Of a DNA stretch of 64,000 bases, positions 30,254 through 34,937 are shown in pieces; position 1 is the first letter of the stretch, and every line of letters starts with the position of its first letter. Under the pieces are notes generated by a model. The model ran no database searches, was not told the DNA's origin, and worked only from the letters and a program-made list of their open reading frames with translations. The position numbers were made by a program, and so were the translations under genes. The stretch is from Flagellimonas aurea (lineage in GTDB: Bacteria; Bacteroidota; Bacteroidia; Flavobacteriales; Flavobacteriaceae): contig NZ_JAFLNL010000004.1 of NCBI RefSeq assembly GCF_017313785.1, forward strand, positions 62,001 to 126,000, given 5' to 3'.

Positions 30254-30324
30254 ACGGTTCATCCCCGAATGTTCACAGTTGGGTAAACCTTCTTTTAAAA
30301 AAAGCAGTCTTGTGGTCATCTTTG
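30254..30324 (+). promoter_or_regulatory. LytTR-type tandem site and promoter of the kinase operon
   Basis: ACGGTTCAT (30254-30262), 12 bases, ACAGTTGGG (30275-30283), 37 bases, then TTTG (30321-30324), 27 bases before the ATG at 30352. The downstream half-site is a perfect consensus match and the upstream one differs at one position. The geometry equals that of the sites at 24202 and 32463. The -7 box (CATCTTTG) is imperfect, as expected for an activator-dependent promoter. Confidence 0.7.
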
Positions 30325-30351
30325 TGGCATCAATAATCAAAAACAACAGTC

Positions 30352-30975
30352 ATGAAAAAACTTATTTTAGCTATTGTACTCATTGGGTCAACATTGGTAA
30401 ATGCGCAGGATCGCTATTCCAGTGGAATGGAAAAGGCCTTTGAATTATGGCAGAACCAGAAAACAACAGAGGCATCTAACCTTTTCGAGCGAATTGCCAC
30501 TGCTGAACCGGATAAATGGTTGCCCTATTATTACGTATCGCAGATCAATACCGTAATATCTTTTGGGGAGAAGGATGAGGAAAAATTGAGCAAGCAATTG
30601 GAAAAAGCCAAAGAGTTTTTGGATGTGGCAAAGGCCATTTCTCCGGACAACCCAGAAATCCTGATTCAGGAAGCCCTTATCAATACAGCATGGATTGCTT
30701 TTGATGGTGTTACTTACGGGATGACGCTTTCCCCAAAAAATGTGCAATTGTACCAAAAAGCTCTTGAAATAGCTCCGGATAACCCAAGGGTGATACTTTC
30801 CAAAGCGGAATGGGACATGGGGTCGGCCCGCTATTTTGGTAAGGATGTTACCCCATATTGCAAAGATGTGGAAAGGGCCTTGGATCTTTTTGCTACCTTT
30901 AAATCCGAAACTCCGTTCTACCCGACCTGGGGAAAAGAAAGGGCGGAAGAGGTGTTGAAAAGCTGTGGTAAATAG
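30352..30975 (+). CDS. Secreted TPR-like protein, first gene of the kinase operon
   Basis: The 207-residue protein has a signal peptide (ends at VNAQ) and repeated helical pairs of the TPR type (ASNLFERIATAEPDKWLPYYY, YQKALEIAPDNPRVILSKAE). No catalytic motif is visible. It is located six bases before the histidine kinase start and shares its LytTR-type promoter, so it may be a periplasmic accessory or sensor partner of the kinase. That role is inference. Confidence 0.75.
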   Translation: MKKLILAIVLIGSTLVNAQDRYSSGMEKAFELWQNQKTTEASNLFERIATAEPDKWLPYYYVSQINTVISFGEKDEEKLSKQLEKAKEFLDVAKAISPDNPEILIQEALINTAWIAFDGVTYGMTLSPKNVQLYQKALEIAPDNPRVILSKAEWDMGSARYFGKDVTPYCKDVERALDLFATFKSETPFYPTWGKERAEEVLKSCGK

Positions 30976-30981
30976 AAATAA

Positions 30982-32310
30982 ATGAAACTCTTTATAAAAG
31001 AACTTATAAAAGCATTTTTAGTGGGGATAGCTATTTTTATAGTTTTCCTCATTATTTTCTTTATCAAGGGATGGGACCTTACCTATCAGCAGTTATGGGA
31101 GGAGTTTTGGGAAAGTATGATCTTTTCCGTCATCATTTACATGTTCAATGCCGCATCTTTTATCTTTTTGATGCGCAAATACGATAAGGAACTCTTTACA
31201 AAAAAGTATGTTGGTTATGGTATTCTAGGGAATATTATAGCTTCCATACTTGGAATTATTGTTTCCAGATTTGTATTAATGGTTCTGGTATATCAAAAAT
31301 CCATAAGCCAGTTCTTTGCGGAGGAACGCTCTGAATTCTATGTAAGCTCCTTTATCATTTCCATGGCGGTGGCATTGATGTTCTATGCAGCCTACTACTA
31401 CAAATACTACAAGGAAAAGCAGGTAAAGGAGCAAAAAATTATTGCCGGGTCGGCCTCGGCACGTTTCGATGCGCTGAAAAACCAATTGGATCCCCATTTT
31501 TTGTTCAACAGCCTTAATGTATTGACCAGTTTGATAGATGAGGACCCACACCAGGCACAAAACTTCACCACATCGCTTTCCAAAGTATATCGATATGTGT
31601 TGGAACAGAAAAACAAGGATCTTGTTACGGTTGATGAGGAGTTGAAGTTTGCTCGAACCTACGTTAGACTACTTAAAATGCGCTTTGAGGACAGTATTAT
31701 TTTCGATATTCCGGATACTTGCTCCCAGCCTGAAGCTAAAATAGTGCCCCTGTCATTACAGCTTTTGTTAGAAAATGCAGTCAAGCATAATGTGGTCACT
31801 TCTTCCCGGCCATTGCATATCAAAGTATTTGAACAAAATGGCATGTTGGCGGTAAGCAACAACCTCCAAGAAAAGCAGGTGGTGAAAAAAAGCAGTGGGG
31901 TAGGACTCCAAAACATAAAACAACGCTACAATATCCTTACGGACCGTGAAGTGATCATTGAGAAAACAAAAAGTGATTTCATGGTTTTTATACCCATGCT
32001 CACCCAAAAATATACGGTTCTGGAGACACAGGAGAGCTATATTGAAGAGAAACGCTATGCCAATGCTAAGGAACGGGTCAAGAATATTAAAGACTTCTAT
32101 GGCAATCTTATGGCCTATTGTATTGTGATTCCTTTTTTATGGTGGCTCAACTTTCGCACTACGGATTTTCTATGGGCTTTCTTCCCTACATTGGGTTGGG
32201 GATTTGGACTTACAGCCCACGGTATGGCAGCTTTCGGCTATAATCCGTTATGGGGAAAACGTTGGGAGGAGCGCAAGATCAAAGAGTTGATGGAGAAGGA
32301 CGATTTCTAG
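30982..32310 (+). CDS. LytS-type membrane histidine kinase with C-terminal 2TM domain
   Basis: The 442-residue protein has four N-terminal membrane helices (about 10-28, 46-64, 78-103, 120-138), a His_kinase (PF06580) domain with the phospho-acceptor His172 in LDPHFLFNSLNVL, and an ATPase part with LLENAVKHN and SGVGLQNIKQRY. Residues 358-442 are an extra 2TM domain (two helices, then NPLWGKRWEERKIKELM). This domain is closest to the small protein encoded next, which suggests duplication or hetero-association. Partner: the LytTR regulator at 34182. Confidence 0.93.
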   Translation: MKLFIKELIKAFLVGIAIFIVFLIIFFIKGWDLTYQQLWEEFWESMIFSVIIYMFNAASFIFLMRKYDKELFTKKYVGYGILGNIIASILGIIVSRFVLMVLVYQKSISQFFAEERSEFYVSSFIISMAVALMFYAAYYYKYYKEKQVKEQKIIAGSASARFDALKNQLDPHFLFNSLNVLTSLIDEDPHQAQNFTTSLSKVYRYVLEQKNKDLVTVDEELKFARTYVRLLKMRFEDSIIFDIPDTCSQPEAKIVPLSLQLLLENAVKHNVVTSSRPLHIKVFEQNGMLAVSNNLQEKQVVKKSSGVGLQNIKQRYNILTDREVIIEKTKSDFMVFIPMLTQKYTVLETQESYIEEKRYANAKERVKNIKDFYGNLMAYCIVIPFLWWLNFRTTDFLWAFFPTLGWGFGLTAHGMAAFGYNPLWGKRWEERKIKELMEKDDF

Positions 32311-32416
32311 GAAATCAGTTCAGTTTTCTGATTGCAGAAGTCAGCAGTCAGTTTTCGGTTGTTTAGATAAGATGAACTCAGCATAAGGGTTGTAATCACG
32401 AAAATTTCACGAACTT

Positions 32417-32451
32417 CCCTCAACCCTCAACCCTCAACCCTCAACCCTCAA
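32417..32451. repeat. Heptanucleotide tandem repeat CCCTCAA, five copies
   Basis: Five perfect CCCTCAA units end 11 bases before the first LytTR half-site of the 2TM operon. A change in copy number would alter only the spacing upstream of the operator. Confidence 0.9.
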
Positions 32452-33498: not shown

Positions 33499-33499
33499 G

Positions 33500-33835
33500 A
33501 TGATGGTCAACAAAGATACAGCGAGAGAGAACGCTAAAAAACGCGTCAAGGAGCTCAAAGGATACTATAGGCACATTTTCATTTTTATTGTCGTTAATGG
33601 CTTCTTATACCTTCTTAAGACCGGAGTATTAAATTCGTTGTTGCCGGAAACATTTCCAAAGGAGTCCTATTACTATGATTGGATCAATGCAAACATCTTG
33701 ATTTGGGCCGTGCTCTTGGTCGTACATACCTTGATTCTGCAAAGGCATAAATTTACGTTCTTTAAAAGATGGGAAGAACGGCAGATTCAAAAATACATCG
33801 AAGAGGATAGGAACAAGGTGGATAAATATAAATAG
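33500..33835 (+). CDS. 2TM-domain protein 4 of 5, divergent
   Basis: The 111-residue protein starts like the others (AKKRVKELKGYYRHIFIFIV) and ends with FKRWEERQIQKYIEEDRNKV, but the loop between the helices is longer and the conserved WG..HA..NP..GK segment is lost. It starts one base after copy 3, so translation is probably coupled. Confidence 0.82.
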   Translation: MMVNKDTARENAKKRVKELKGYYRHIFIFIVVNGFLYLLKTGVLNSLLPETFPKESYYYDWINANILIWAVLLVVHTLILQRHKFTFFKRWEERQIQKYIEEDRNKVDKYK

Positions 33836-33839
33836 CATC

Positions 33840-34118
33840 ATGGACAGAAATTCCGTTTTTGAAAAGGCCCAGCGAAAGGTGAATGCCATAAAAAGGTTTT
33901 ACTATCATTTGGTGTTTTTTATTTTAGTAAGTTCTGTCCTCTTGGCCTTAAAAGGAAGTATCGTTGATCGGTTCATGGAAACCAGTGGCAACTCTAATGA
34001 AGCTTTTTTGAAATGGATAGATTGGAATATTTTGGCGATACCCATAATTTGGGGAGCTGTGATCGCTGTCCAAGGAAGGTATGTTTACAGACTTCATTTT
34101 GATGATAAAAAAGTATAG
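33840..34118 (+). CDS. 2TM-domain protein 5 of 5, degenerate
   Basis: The 92-residue protein keeps the N-terminal helix pattern (KAQRKVNAIKRFYYHLVFFI) and two hydrophobic segments but ends soon after the second one, lacking the WEER motif entirely. It may be a decayed copy or a form specialised by loss of the cytoplasmic tail. It lies four bases after copy 4 and 63 bases before the response regulator. Confidence 0.72.
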   Translation: MDRNSVFEKAQRKVNAIKRFYYHLVFFILVSSVLLALKGSIVDRFMETSGNSNEAFLKWIDWNILAIPIIWGAVIAVQGRYVYRLHFDDKKV

Positions 34119-34181
34119 TGAAGAAGAAGTAACAATAAAAATCACAACAAGACCTAAACCTAAACCACAAACCAAACCTAT

Positions 34182-34937
34182 ATGAATGTCCTGATTATTG
34201 AAGACGAAAAACCAGCAGCAAGAAGATTGTCCAGACTGCTCTCCGAATTGGAAATGGAGGTCTCCACCATGTTGCATTCCGTTGAAGAATCCATAGCATG
34301 GTTTCAGAAAAATCCGCATCCCGATTTAATCTTTCTGGACATCCAATTATCCGATGGACTTTCCTTTGAAATTTTTGATGAAGTCGAGGTGAAAAGTGCT
34401 ATCATTTTTACCACCGCTTATGATGAATATGCACTCCAAGCATTCAAGTTAAATAGCATTGATTATTTGTTAAAACCCATAGACGAAGAAGAGCTGGAAA
34501 GTGCCGTAAAAAAGTACCGGAATTTTAAGCCGGAAAACCAAAAAATACCAATCGATTTTAACGACATAAAGAAGCTTTTGGTGAACCCTTTGGAACGTGA
34601 ATTCAAGAAGCGGTTTACAGCTAGGGTAGGACAGCATTTAAAAATTATAAATGCCGATGAGGTAGAGTGTTTTTATAGTGAGAACAAAGGTACTTATGCC
34701 GCTACTTCGGATGGAAGAAATTATTTATTGGACACTACCCTGGAACAGTTGGAGGAGGAGTTGGAGCCACAGACATTTTTTAGGGTCAGCCGAAAATTTT
34801 ATGTGAACATAAACCATATAGGAGACATCATTTCGTATACAAATTCAAGGCTTCAAATCAAGTTAAAACGGTTTGATGAGGCTGAAGTGATAGTAAGTAG
34901 GGAACGAGTAAGAGACTTTAAGTTATGGTTGGAATAA
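34182..34937 (+). CDS. LytTR family response regulator
   Basis: The 251-residue regulator has a receiver domain with phospho-acceptor Asp53 (LIFLDIQLSDG), acidic pocket IIEDE at the start, and KP at LLKPID. The C-terminal LytTR DNA-binding domain spans about 145-250 (RFTARVGQHLKIINADEV, FFRVSRKFYVNINHI). It is the expected partner of the LytS-type kinase at 30982. Three sites with LytTR-type half-sites in the window are its probable targets. Confidence 0.95.
   Translation: MNVLIIEDEKPAARRLSRLLSELEMEVSTMLHSVEESIAWFQKNPHPDLIFLDIQLSDGLSFEIFDEVEVKSAIIFTTAYDEYALQAFKLNSIDYLLKPIDEEELESAVKKYRNFKPENQKIPIDFNDIKKLLVNPLEREFKKRFTARVGQHLKIINADEVECFYSENKGTYAATSDGRNYLLDTTLEQLEEELEPQTFFRVSRKFYVNINHIGDIISYTNSRLQIKLKRFDEAEVIVSRERVRDFKLWLE

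Follow-up and report, generated by a model that had tools for sequence, protein, structure and literature searches.

A LytTR-type two-component locus with kinase-fused and free 2TM domains and a predicted five-promoter regulon in Flavobacteriaceae

Introduction

What do small free 2TM proteins (PF13239) do beside a histidine kinase that carries the same domain at its own C-terminus? The question is raised by a locus in a 64,000-nucleotide stretch of Flagellimonas aurea DNA (contig NZ_JAFLNL010000004.1; genome of 4.48 Mb), which we call the window and to which all positions refer. The answer that we favor, at a probability of about 0.5, would be a two-component system that senses the envelope and regulates its own expression, with free 2TM proteins that join the kinase tail and tune the kinase. 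Its parts differ in strength: we hold the two-component system and its regulon with high confidence, and the modulator role of the free 2TM proteins is, judged from sequence, an even call.

PF13239 was described in the initial annotation of this DNA as lacking an assigned function, and we found none in the open-licence PMC literature, which is weak evidence of absence. The accession occurs in none of these papers, and in the passages retrieved "2TM domain" referred to glycine-zipper 2TM proteins or other two-helix regions. Neither a 2TM kinase nor the five-promoter regulon described below came up in the open-licence papers, again weak evidence of absence.

Results

A kinase with a 2TM tail and five free 2TM proteins

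The locus (30352-34937, forward strand) encodes a TPR protein and a kinase and, after a gap of 254 bp, five small genes and a LytTR regulator. Its genes, with the E-values of their Pfam matches, are as follows.

30352-30975, forward: TPR-like protein of 207 amino acids with an apparent signal peptide (by eye), first gene of the kinase operon (TPR_19, 5e-6)
30982-32310, forward: PF06580 histidine kinase of 442 amino acids, with four N-terminal helices of transmembrane (TM) length, DHp/CA and a 2TM tail (PF06580, 3e-25)
About 32062-32295, forward: 2TM tail of the kinase, residues 361-438 (PF13239, 3e-28)
32565-32843, forward: free 2TM protein 1, 92 amino acids (PF13239, 3.2e-26)
32846-33190, forward: free 2TM protein 2, 114 amino acids (PF13239, 2.2e-29)
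33181-33498, forward: free 2TM protein 3, 105 amino acids, overlapping gene 2 by 10 bp (PF13239, 1.1e-27)
33500-33835, forward: free 2TM protein 4, 111 amino acids (PF13239, 2.6e-18)
33840-34118, forward: free 2TM protein 5, 92 amino acids, the most divergent (PF13239, 9.1e-10)
34182-34937, forward: LytTR response regulator, 251 amino acids (LytTR PF04397, 9.3e-22; Response_reg PF00072, 4.5e-15)

The initial annotation had read this as a LytS-LytTR locus built around six 2TM domains, and Pfam bore it out: the kinase tail and the five free genes together contribute six PF13239 domains (98, 91.6, 101.8, 96.3, 66.3, and 38.9 bits), all above the cut-off of 24.8, the weakest being that of the fifth free gene, and PF06580 and LytTR were likewise confirmed. 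The TPR match was barely above its own cut-off (TPR_19, 27.2 versus 25). A seventh PF13239 match in the genome lies away from the locus, beside a dihydrofolate reductase (DHFR)-like gene. Spacings between the five free genes are 2, -10, 1, and 4 bp, which makes coupled translation plausible.

The PF06580 domain of the kinase contains the histidine motif DPHFLFN, in which H172 was invariant in alignments of 30 and of 70 kinases, as were N265, G308, and N311 in the aligned kinases; no HATPase domain was among its Pfam matches. The 5TM input domain of LytS, which we take to be PF07694, was not among the kinase matches up to E = 1. The regulator carries both a receiver and a LytTR DNA-binding domain. 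In a structural model of the kinase (mean predicted local distance difference test score (pLDDT) 81, predicted template modeling score (pTM) 0.45), four long N-terminal helices, a GanS-like core, and a terminal hairpin like that of free 2TM protein 3 (below) were apparent, with the tail helices spanning residues 346-393 and 400-418. The 50 Foldseek matches shown for this model were all histidine kinases or parts of them, the best being GanS, and one names the BceAB-S complex. On this model the kinase would be tied to the inner membrane at both ends, which would offer a plausible control point for the catalytic domain. At one related locus (L137, G059:C15), a kinase of 514 amino acids bears two tandem C-terminal 2TM domains.

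The model of free 2TM protein 3 (pLDDT 86) consists of a helix from residue 2 to 47 that includes the first TM segment, a second TM helix (54-75), and a C-terminal helix (82-103). Foldseek returned no PDB match for it with E up to 0.001, and a search of PDB sequences with the 2TM profile gave one poor match (E 0.88). Within the WEE motif of the free proteins, W and E were invariant in 60 aligned sequences.

Conservation of the locus in Flavobacteriaceae

Among 60 sampled genomes of the family, PF13239 occurred in 53; 44, the window's own included, had at least two matches and 16 had at most one. All 44 have a tailed-kinase locus, and in all 43 other than the window's the tailed kinase (cut by the contig end at L157) is accompanied by at least one free 2TM gene. 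At loci L114 and L121 no regulator was found within the stretch examined. No tailed kinase was found in the 16 genomes that had a single 2TM match or none; kinase matches there never extended beyond residue 365, where the tail starts, and the best was 33% identical. In a sample of the phylum, a 2TM open reading frame of kinase size lay in the cluster in 9 of the 9 non-window genomes that had neighboring 2TM matches; within the genus, the contig of G002 starts after the kinase and G014 has just one 2TM match. The initial annotation had proposed a search for PF13239 arrays beside such kinase and LytTR genes elsewhere; its outcome was a tailed-kinase locus in 44/44 family genomes with at least two matches and a kinase-size 2TM frame in the 9/9 of the phylum sample with neighboring matches.

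We then compared 140 tailed-kinase loci, drawn from loci found by kinase similarity rather than through the array (best 80 of 577) and from the genus, family, and f5 loci and made non-redundant by dropping seven near-identical kinases from 147; L107, whose kinase lies off its contig, was also dropped. Free 2TM genes were present at every one of the 140, in one (23 loci), two (39), three (36), four (27), five (9), or six (6) copies, counts that may be off by one at a locus because some genes are short or were called from the earliest possible codon. The regulator was found in 138. The free genes stand close together, with spacings of at most 30 bp in 226 of 258 cases and 131 overlaps by the starts used. 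With this gene order repeated across 140 non-redundant loci, we rejected a chance occurrence of the array. A TPR homolog lies upstream of the kinase in 102 loci and was not found in the other 38, six of which are at a contig edge; the secreted TPR-like protein, which by the earlier suggestion may complete the sensor, is therefore probably not obligatory.

A tree of 185 2TM domains, taken from 45 loci (half of the named loci, by selection, and five more), placed the nearest neighbor in the same locus for just 8 domains, by which a recent tandem duplication of one gene was rejected. Window copies 1 to 4 grouped with like-positioned copies of other loci, the fifth was loosely placed, and the kinase tails formed no single clean clade. 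As read from this tree, the copies are old and several are positionally orthologous. A fifth free gene was seen in 3 of the 16 genus relatives that have the array. At two loci in a second family of the order (L108:5615-6184 and L109:5042-5611), free 2TM genes are separated by a gene for a 189-residue protein that looks membrane-like by eye.

2TM genes away from the tailed kinase

No tandem 2TM array lacking a tailed kinase was seen in the 60 family genomes or in the phylum sample. Outside the order, 2TM occurred in our samples as single proteins only; the locus described here has tandem copies, a kinase tail, and a common operator. To describe these single genes we used 32 loci (31 outside the order and L162 in the family; 34 had been given, of which L424 and L440 fell below the profile threshold). 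Small winged-helix genes together with a protein of roughly 193 amino acids were near 9 of the 32, a TPR homolog was nearby in 6, and a TonB-dependent receptor lay within 3 kb in 6; the winged-helix, 193-residue, and receptor profiles behind these counts were seeded from the same loci, the receptor profile from five of them. The one winged-helix protein scanned is HTH_34 (PF13601). At six loci of other families (L427, L428, L433, L434, L437, and L439), the TPR homolog, the protein of about 193 amino acids, the winged-helix gene, and one 2TM gene stand together. The winged-helix cluster is an apparent alternative, by gene content, to the kinase/regulator pair in other families of the phylum. 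A split state was seen at L160, where a free 2TM gene is followed after about 3 bp by a tail-less PF06580 kinase and then by a LytTR-type regulator.

An operator and promoter common to both operons

The operator upstream of the kinase operon, ACGGTTCAT-N12-ACAGTTGGG, is a direct repeat of LytTR type, as judged by the LytTR direct-repeat consensus, with half-sites 21 bp apart; its first base is exactly 30254, where the initial annotation had begun the locus. This fixed spacing of about two helical turns is as in LytTR systems, and the repeat is assigned by prediction to the regulator of the locus. Two matches to the motif were found in the window (30254 and 32463) where 0.06 were expected. The second stands before the array, which thereby carries an operator-promoter of its own, of the kind found at the kinase operon; this supports the two adjacent operons proposed initially.

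Across the related loci, ACRRTT pairs at exactly 21 bp occurred in 77 of 201 upstream and gap regions, and at any other distance from 8 to 60 bp in at most 3. Upstream regions were scanned at 137 loci (three with under 60 bp of upstream sequence were left out) and kinase-array gaps of at least 60 bp at 61. Operators scoring at least 13/17 were found upstream of the operon at 81 of the 137 loci and in 52 of the 61 gaps, compared with 2 and 0 on the opposite strand and 3 and 0 in reversed sequence, and they lay at -90 to -125 from the start codon used in 61 of the 81 upstream cases and 44 of the 52 gap cases.

When 121 operators scoring at least 14/17 were aligned, a T at +14 and an A at +38 were each present in 99% and TTTG at +41 in 110; the full TAnnTTTG was present in just 10. 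We take the TTTG downstream of the operator to be a weakened Bacteroidota -7 box. Because the operator center would lie near -60 ahead of this weakened box, we infer that the regulator activates rather than represses. The placement would be as for AgrA, described in the relevant passage of PMC4227749 as having a direct-repeat operator upstream of the promoter with its center about -60 from the transcription start. A sigma-70 scan, which was not designed for Bacteroidota promoters, gave 14 promoter-like sites versus 17.5 in shuffles. Just upstream of the array operator the window contains a perfect heptamer repeat (CCCTCAA, 5.3 copies, 32417-32453); at L098 the same gap holds a different heptamer repeat (TCAGTTA).

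A predicted regulon of five promoters

Going beyond the initial annotation, we described operator plus promoter as a 71-nucleotide LytTR-type composite with 22 scored positions, designed with the window and the genus in view. With at most two mismatches it occurs at five places in the 4.48-Mb genome, all in the window and within 20 kb, and its reversed pattern at none. Two of these places, ahead of the kinase operon and ahead of the 2TM array, are in the locus itself; the other three precede a TonB-dependent receptor, a DUF2141 gene, and a DUF2807 gene. In the list below, scores are those of a position weight matrix (PWM) built from 77 non-genus sites.

30254-30280, forward: operator of the kinase operon, promoter to 30324 (no motif mismatch; PWM 20.0; composite 0/22 mismatches)
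32463-32489, forward: operator of the 2TM array and regulator, promoter to 32533 (best PWM match of the window, 30.6; composite 0 mismatches)
24202-24228, forward: operator of the TonB-dependent receptor, composite 24202-24272 (PWM 23.2; composite 2 mismatches)
24297-26459, forward, start by eye: TonB-dependent receptor with a CarboxypepD_reg-like domain, predicted target (PF00593 2.2e-20, PF13715 8.6e-17, PF07715 5.4e-7)
24158-24184, reverse: DUF2141 operator, composite 24114-24184 (PWM 13.4; composite 1 mismatch)
23665-24084, reverse: DUF2141 protein, 139 amino acids, apparent signal peptide, predicted target (PF09912 4.7e-32)
12957-12983, reverse: weaker DUF2807 operator, composite 12913-12983 (PWM 7.7; composite 2 mismatches)
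12125-12847, reverse: DUF2807 (head GIN/Toastrack-type) protein, predicted target, found through its relatives (PF10988 1.2e-47)

The five sites were the top five of the window by PWM (32463, 30.6; 24202, 23.2; 30254, 20.0; 24158, 13.4; 12957, 7.7), followed by 5.7, where first-order random sequence predicts 0.015 sites per window at 18 or more, 0.375 at 12 or more, and 1.58 at 8 or more; sites 24158 and 12957 are not significant taken singly. Three target promoters had been announced, which we take to be those at 30254, 32463, and the 24158/24202 region; sites are present at all of these, and their number rises to five. Because the array has the same operator-promoter as four other units of the window, it probably belongs to the regulon of its own regulator. 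Close to the regulon, at 39465-41506, are an OmpW-family gene, an extracytoplasmic function (ECF) sigma factor, and an RskA-type anti-sigma gene.

In 20 genomes of the genus, the composite had 92 matches, versus 1 for the reversed pattern, and 81 of them fell at the five kinds of place. It preceded all 19 DUF2141 orthologs with 0-1 mismatch and was present on the divergent strand of all 19 of these regions with 2-3 mismatches, the receptor being seen there in the window, L209, and L213; it also preceded all 18 DUF2807 orthologs scanned (L382 and L397 left out) with 2-4 mismatches. Eleven paralog controls differed from it at 7-10 positions. In G009 the DUF2141 ortholog is absent, yet the site stands before its receptor (L208). 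These genus counts were not blind; the non-genus PWM and the following count of 39 sites are more independent.

The family sample contained 68 operator matches with at most one mismatch, 28 at the locus and 40 away from it. A single one of these 40, in the window's own genome, is close to a different kind of gene; we examined the remaining 39, naming targets by resemblance to the window's proteins. Twenty-five fit the composite with at most three mismatches, and 21 of these precede a DUF2141-like gene (8), a TonB-dependent receptor of one type (5), or a DUF2807-like lipoprotein (8); of the rest, two precede other genes with apparent signal sequences (L370 and L373) and two have no gene of at least 60 amino acids within 300 bp (L365 and L375). 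The remaining 14 need at least five mismatches, and none precedes the start of a gene of the three target kinds; most lie inside long open stretches, and the one at L483 is inside a receptor-like gene. An operator near-match was present somewhere in 38 of the 44 genomes with arrays and 3 of the 16 others, two groups that are also unlike in genome size and relatedness. We rejected the reading of the motif as general background on the strand, reversed-sequence, spacing, and paralog controls, the PWM ranking, and the count of 39 sites, together with the restriction of genome matches to five. In G003, a DUF2141 paralog with its own operator (C170:311-381 and 434-823) stands directly before the TPR-kinase operon. 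G035 has no array, yet an operator-like site precedes a DUF2141-like gene (L376/L477); another LytTR regulator may use it.

Discussion

The arrangement of this locus suggests the following course of events. The kinase would be anchored at both ends, by four N-terminal TM helices and by the 2TM hairpin that follows the catalytic domain at the C-terminus. Its phosphorylated LytTR regulator would bind the direct repeat with its 21-bp spacing, immediately ahead of weak promoters, and thereby switch on five units, namely the TPR-kinase operon, the 2TM array with the regulator, the TonB-dependent receptor, DUF2141, and DUF2807. The free 2TM proteins would assemble with the 2TM tail of the kinase and set its activity, so that activation of the array would feed back on the kinase; of the two directions we favor damping, on the pattern of accessory membrane proteins that inhibit kinases. 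By analogy, an envelope role is suggested because the difference between kinase/LytTR and winged-helix genes beside 2TM and TPR genes resembles the replacement proposed for the phage shock protein (PSP)/Lia systems.

Several observations weigh against this scheme. No operator of at least 13/17 was found in either region scanned at 40 of the 140 loci. Eleven of the 92 composite matches in the genus are elsewhere, and the one of these that we looked at (L210) precedes a gene of 205 amino acids. Sites at the further targets are weaker, with a PWM score of at least 12 before 10 of 19 DUF2141 and 6 of 19 DUF2807 orthologs. Three of the 16 array-free genomes have one operator near-match, in one case before a DUF2141-like gene. 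Just one of the 32 single-2TM loci (L160) has a kinase and regulator nearby, those outside the order being mostly kinase-free. The domain is also found fused to DHFR (L474:406-1299, reverse, by Pfam; L475:414-1394, reverse, by eye), and in the window's own genome a separate 2TM gene directly precedes the DHFR-like gene (L005:1378-2318); such a fusion or pair is perhaps a membrane-tethered DHFR. Because a kinase is mostly missing beside the single 2TM genes of other genomes, 2TM is not in itself a kinase partner. The tie of 2TM to signaling drawn in the initial annotation is supported by the arrays, none of which was seen without a tailed kinase, by the free 2TM genes at 140/140 tailed-kinase loci, and by the operator-promoter common to array and kinase operon.

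Kinase-free 2TM genes in other families, a free copy number that ranges from 1 to 6, and an array operator-promoter common to three predicted envelope genes would also be expected if the free 2TM proteins were effectors that shield or reshape the inner membrane alongside the envelope proteins of the regulon, the tail serving only to place the kinase among them. We regard this as rather unlikely; alone, it leaves unexplained why no tailed kinase was found without a free 2TM gene and why fused and split forms both exist. Variation in copy number would likewise suit a role of 2TM as a passive membrane anchor, in which the array is a neutral tandem expansion retained through co-transcription with the regulator; so would the searches for relatives, where the best PDB sequence match had E = 0.88 and Foldseek gave nothing at E up to 0.001. 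That the copies are old and several of them positionally orthologous, that 0 of 140 loci are devoid of free copies, and that the WEE motif keeps its W and E unchanged across 60 aligned free proteins make such a reading very improbable.

The co-regulated receptor raises another reading, that the system monitors this TonB-dependent receptor or the receptor's cargo; TPR, DUF2141, and 2TM proteins would then belong to a single trans-envelope relay. The operator-bearing receptor is divergent from DUF2141 in the window, L209, L213, and L358, the composite is followed by receptors of similar sequence at L362, L363, L364, L372, and L485, from five other genomes, and 2TM genes of other families have a receptor within 3 kb in 6/32 loci and a TPR homolog in 6/32. 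TonB-dependent receptors are, however, abundant in the genomes of such bacteria, the receptor profile for the 32-locus count was seeded from five of those loci, and a PDB sequence search found no solved relative of the window's receptor (and one poor match, E 0.0013, for DUF2141). We consider this reading improbable, more so than the effector role.

Modulation of the kinase by the free 2TM proteins, the reading we prefer, can be stated more broadly. Tentatively, PF13239 would be a general membrane signaling module of Bacteroidia: in Flavobacteriaceae, several distinct free 2TM subunits would co-assemble with the kinase tail into one membrane sensor, whose output would in turn determine the proportions of its subunits, and in other families a winged-helix repressor or activator would act with the same TPR partner and no kinase. 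The conserved operator-promoter makes PF13239 function open to direct experiment: a single regulator is predicted to control all five promoters, which lie within 20 kb in this genome, and if the modulator reading is true, loss of the small 2TM genes should change the output of these five promoters. A family of unknown function thereby gains a testable role, and DUF2141, DUF2807, and one type of TonB-dependent receptor, all of unknown or vague function, would be tied to one regulator in a widespread family.

Like the known LytS/LytTR systems BtsS/BtsR and LytSR, the locus pairs a PF06580 kinase with a LytTR regulator and places a direct-repeat operator upstream of the promoter. It differs from them in having no LytS 5TM domain among its Pfam matches, a 2TM domain after the catalytic domain, 1-6 free 2TM proteins, and a predicted regulon with a TonB-dependent receptor, DUF2141, and DUF2807. 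With LiaFSR and PSP it shares a two-component locus with small membrane proteins and a DUF2807 target, DUF2807 being in the "Toastrack" set in the relevant passages of a PSP/Lia survey, which also propose that a HAAS/PadR-like pair replaces the two-component pair in some bacteria (PMC11237479). Kinase, regulator, and membrane proteins nevertheless belong to other families, and among the Pfam matches of the ten proteins scanned LiaF, LiaI, PspA, and PspC were not above cut-off, the TPR protein matching PspB at E 0.081, far below it. By analogy, the locus perhaps works like LiaFSR or PSP without being a member of either. The winged-helix-2TM loci of other Bacteroidia resemble it in having a 2TM gene with a TPR homolog or TonB-dependent receptor nearby; where those loci have a small winged-helix neighbor, the Flavobacteriaceae locus has a kinase and its regulator.

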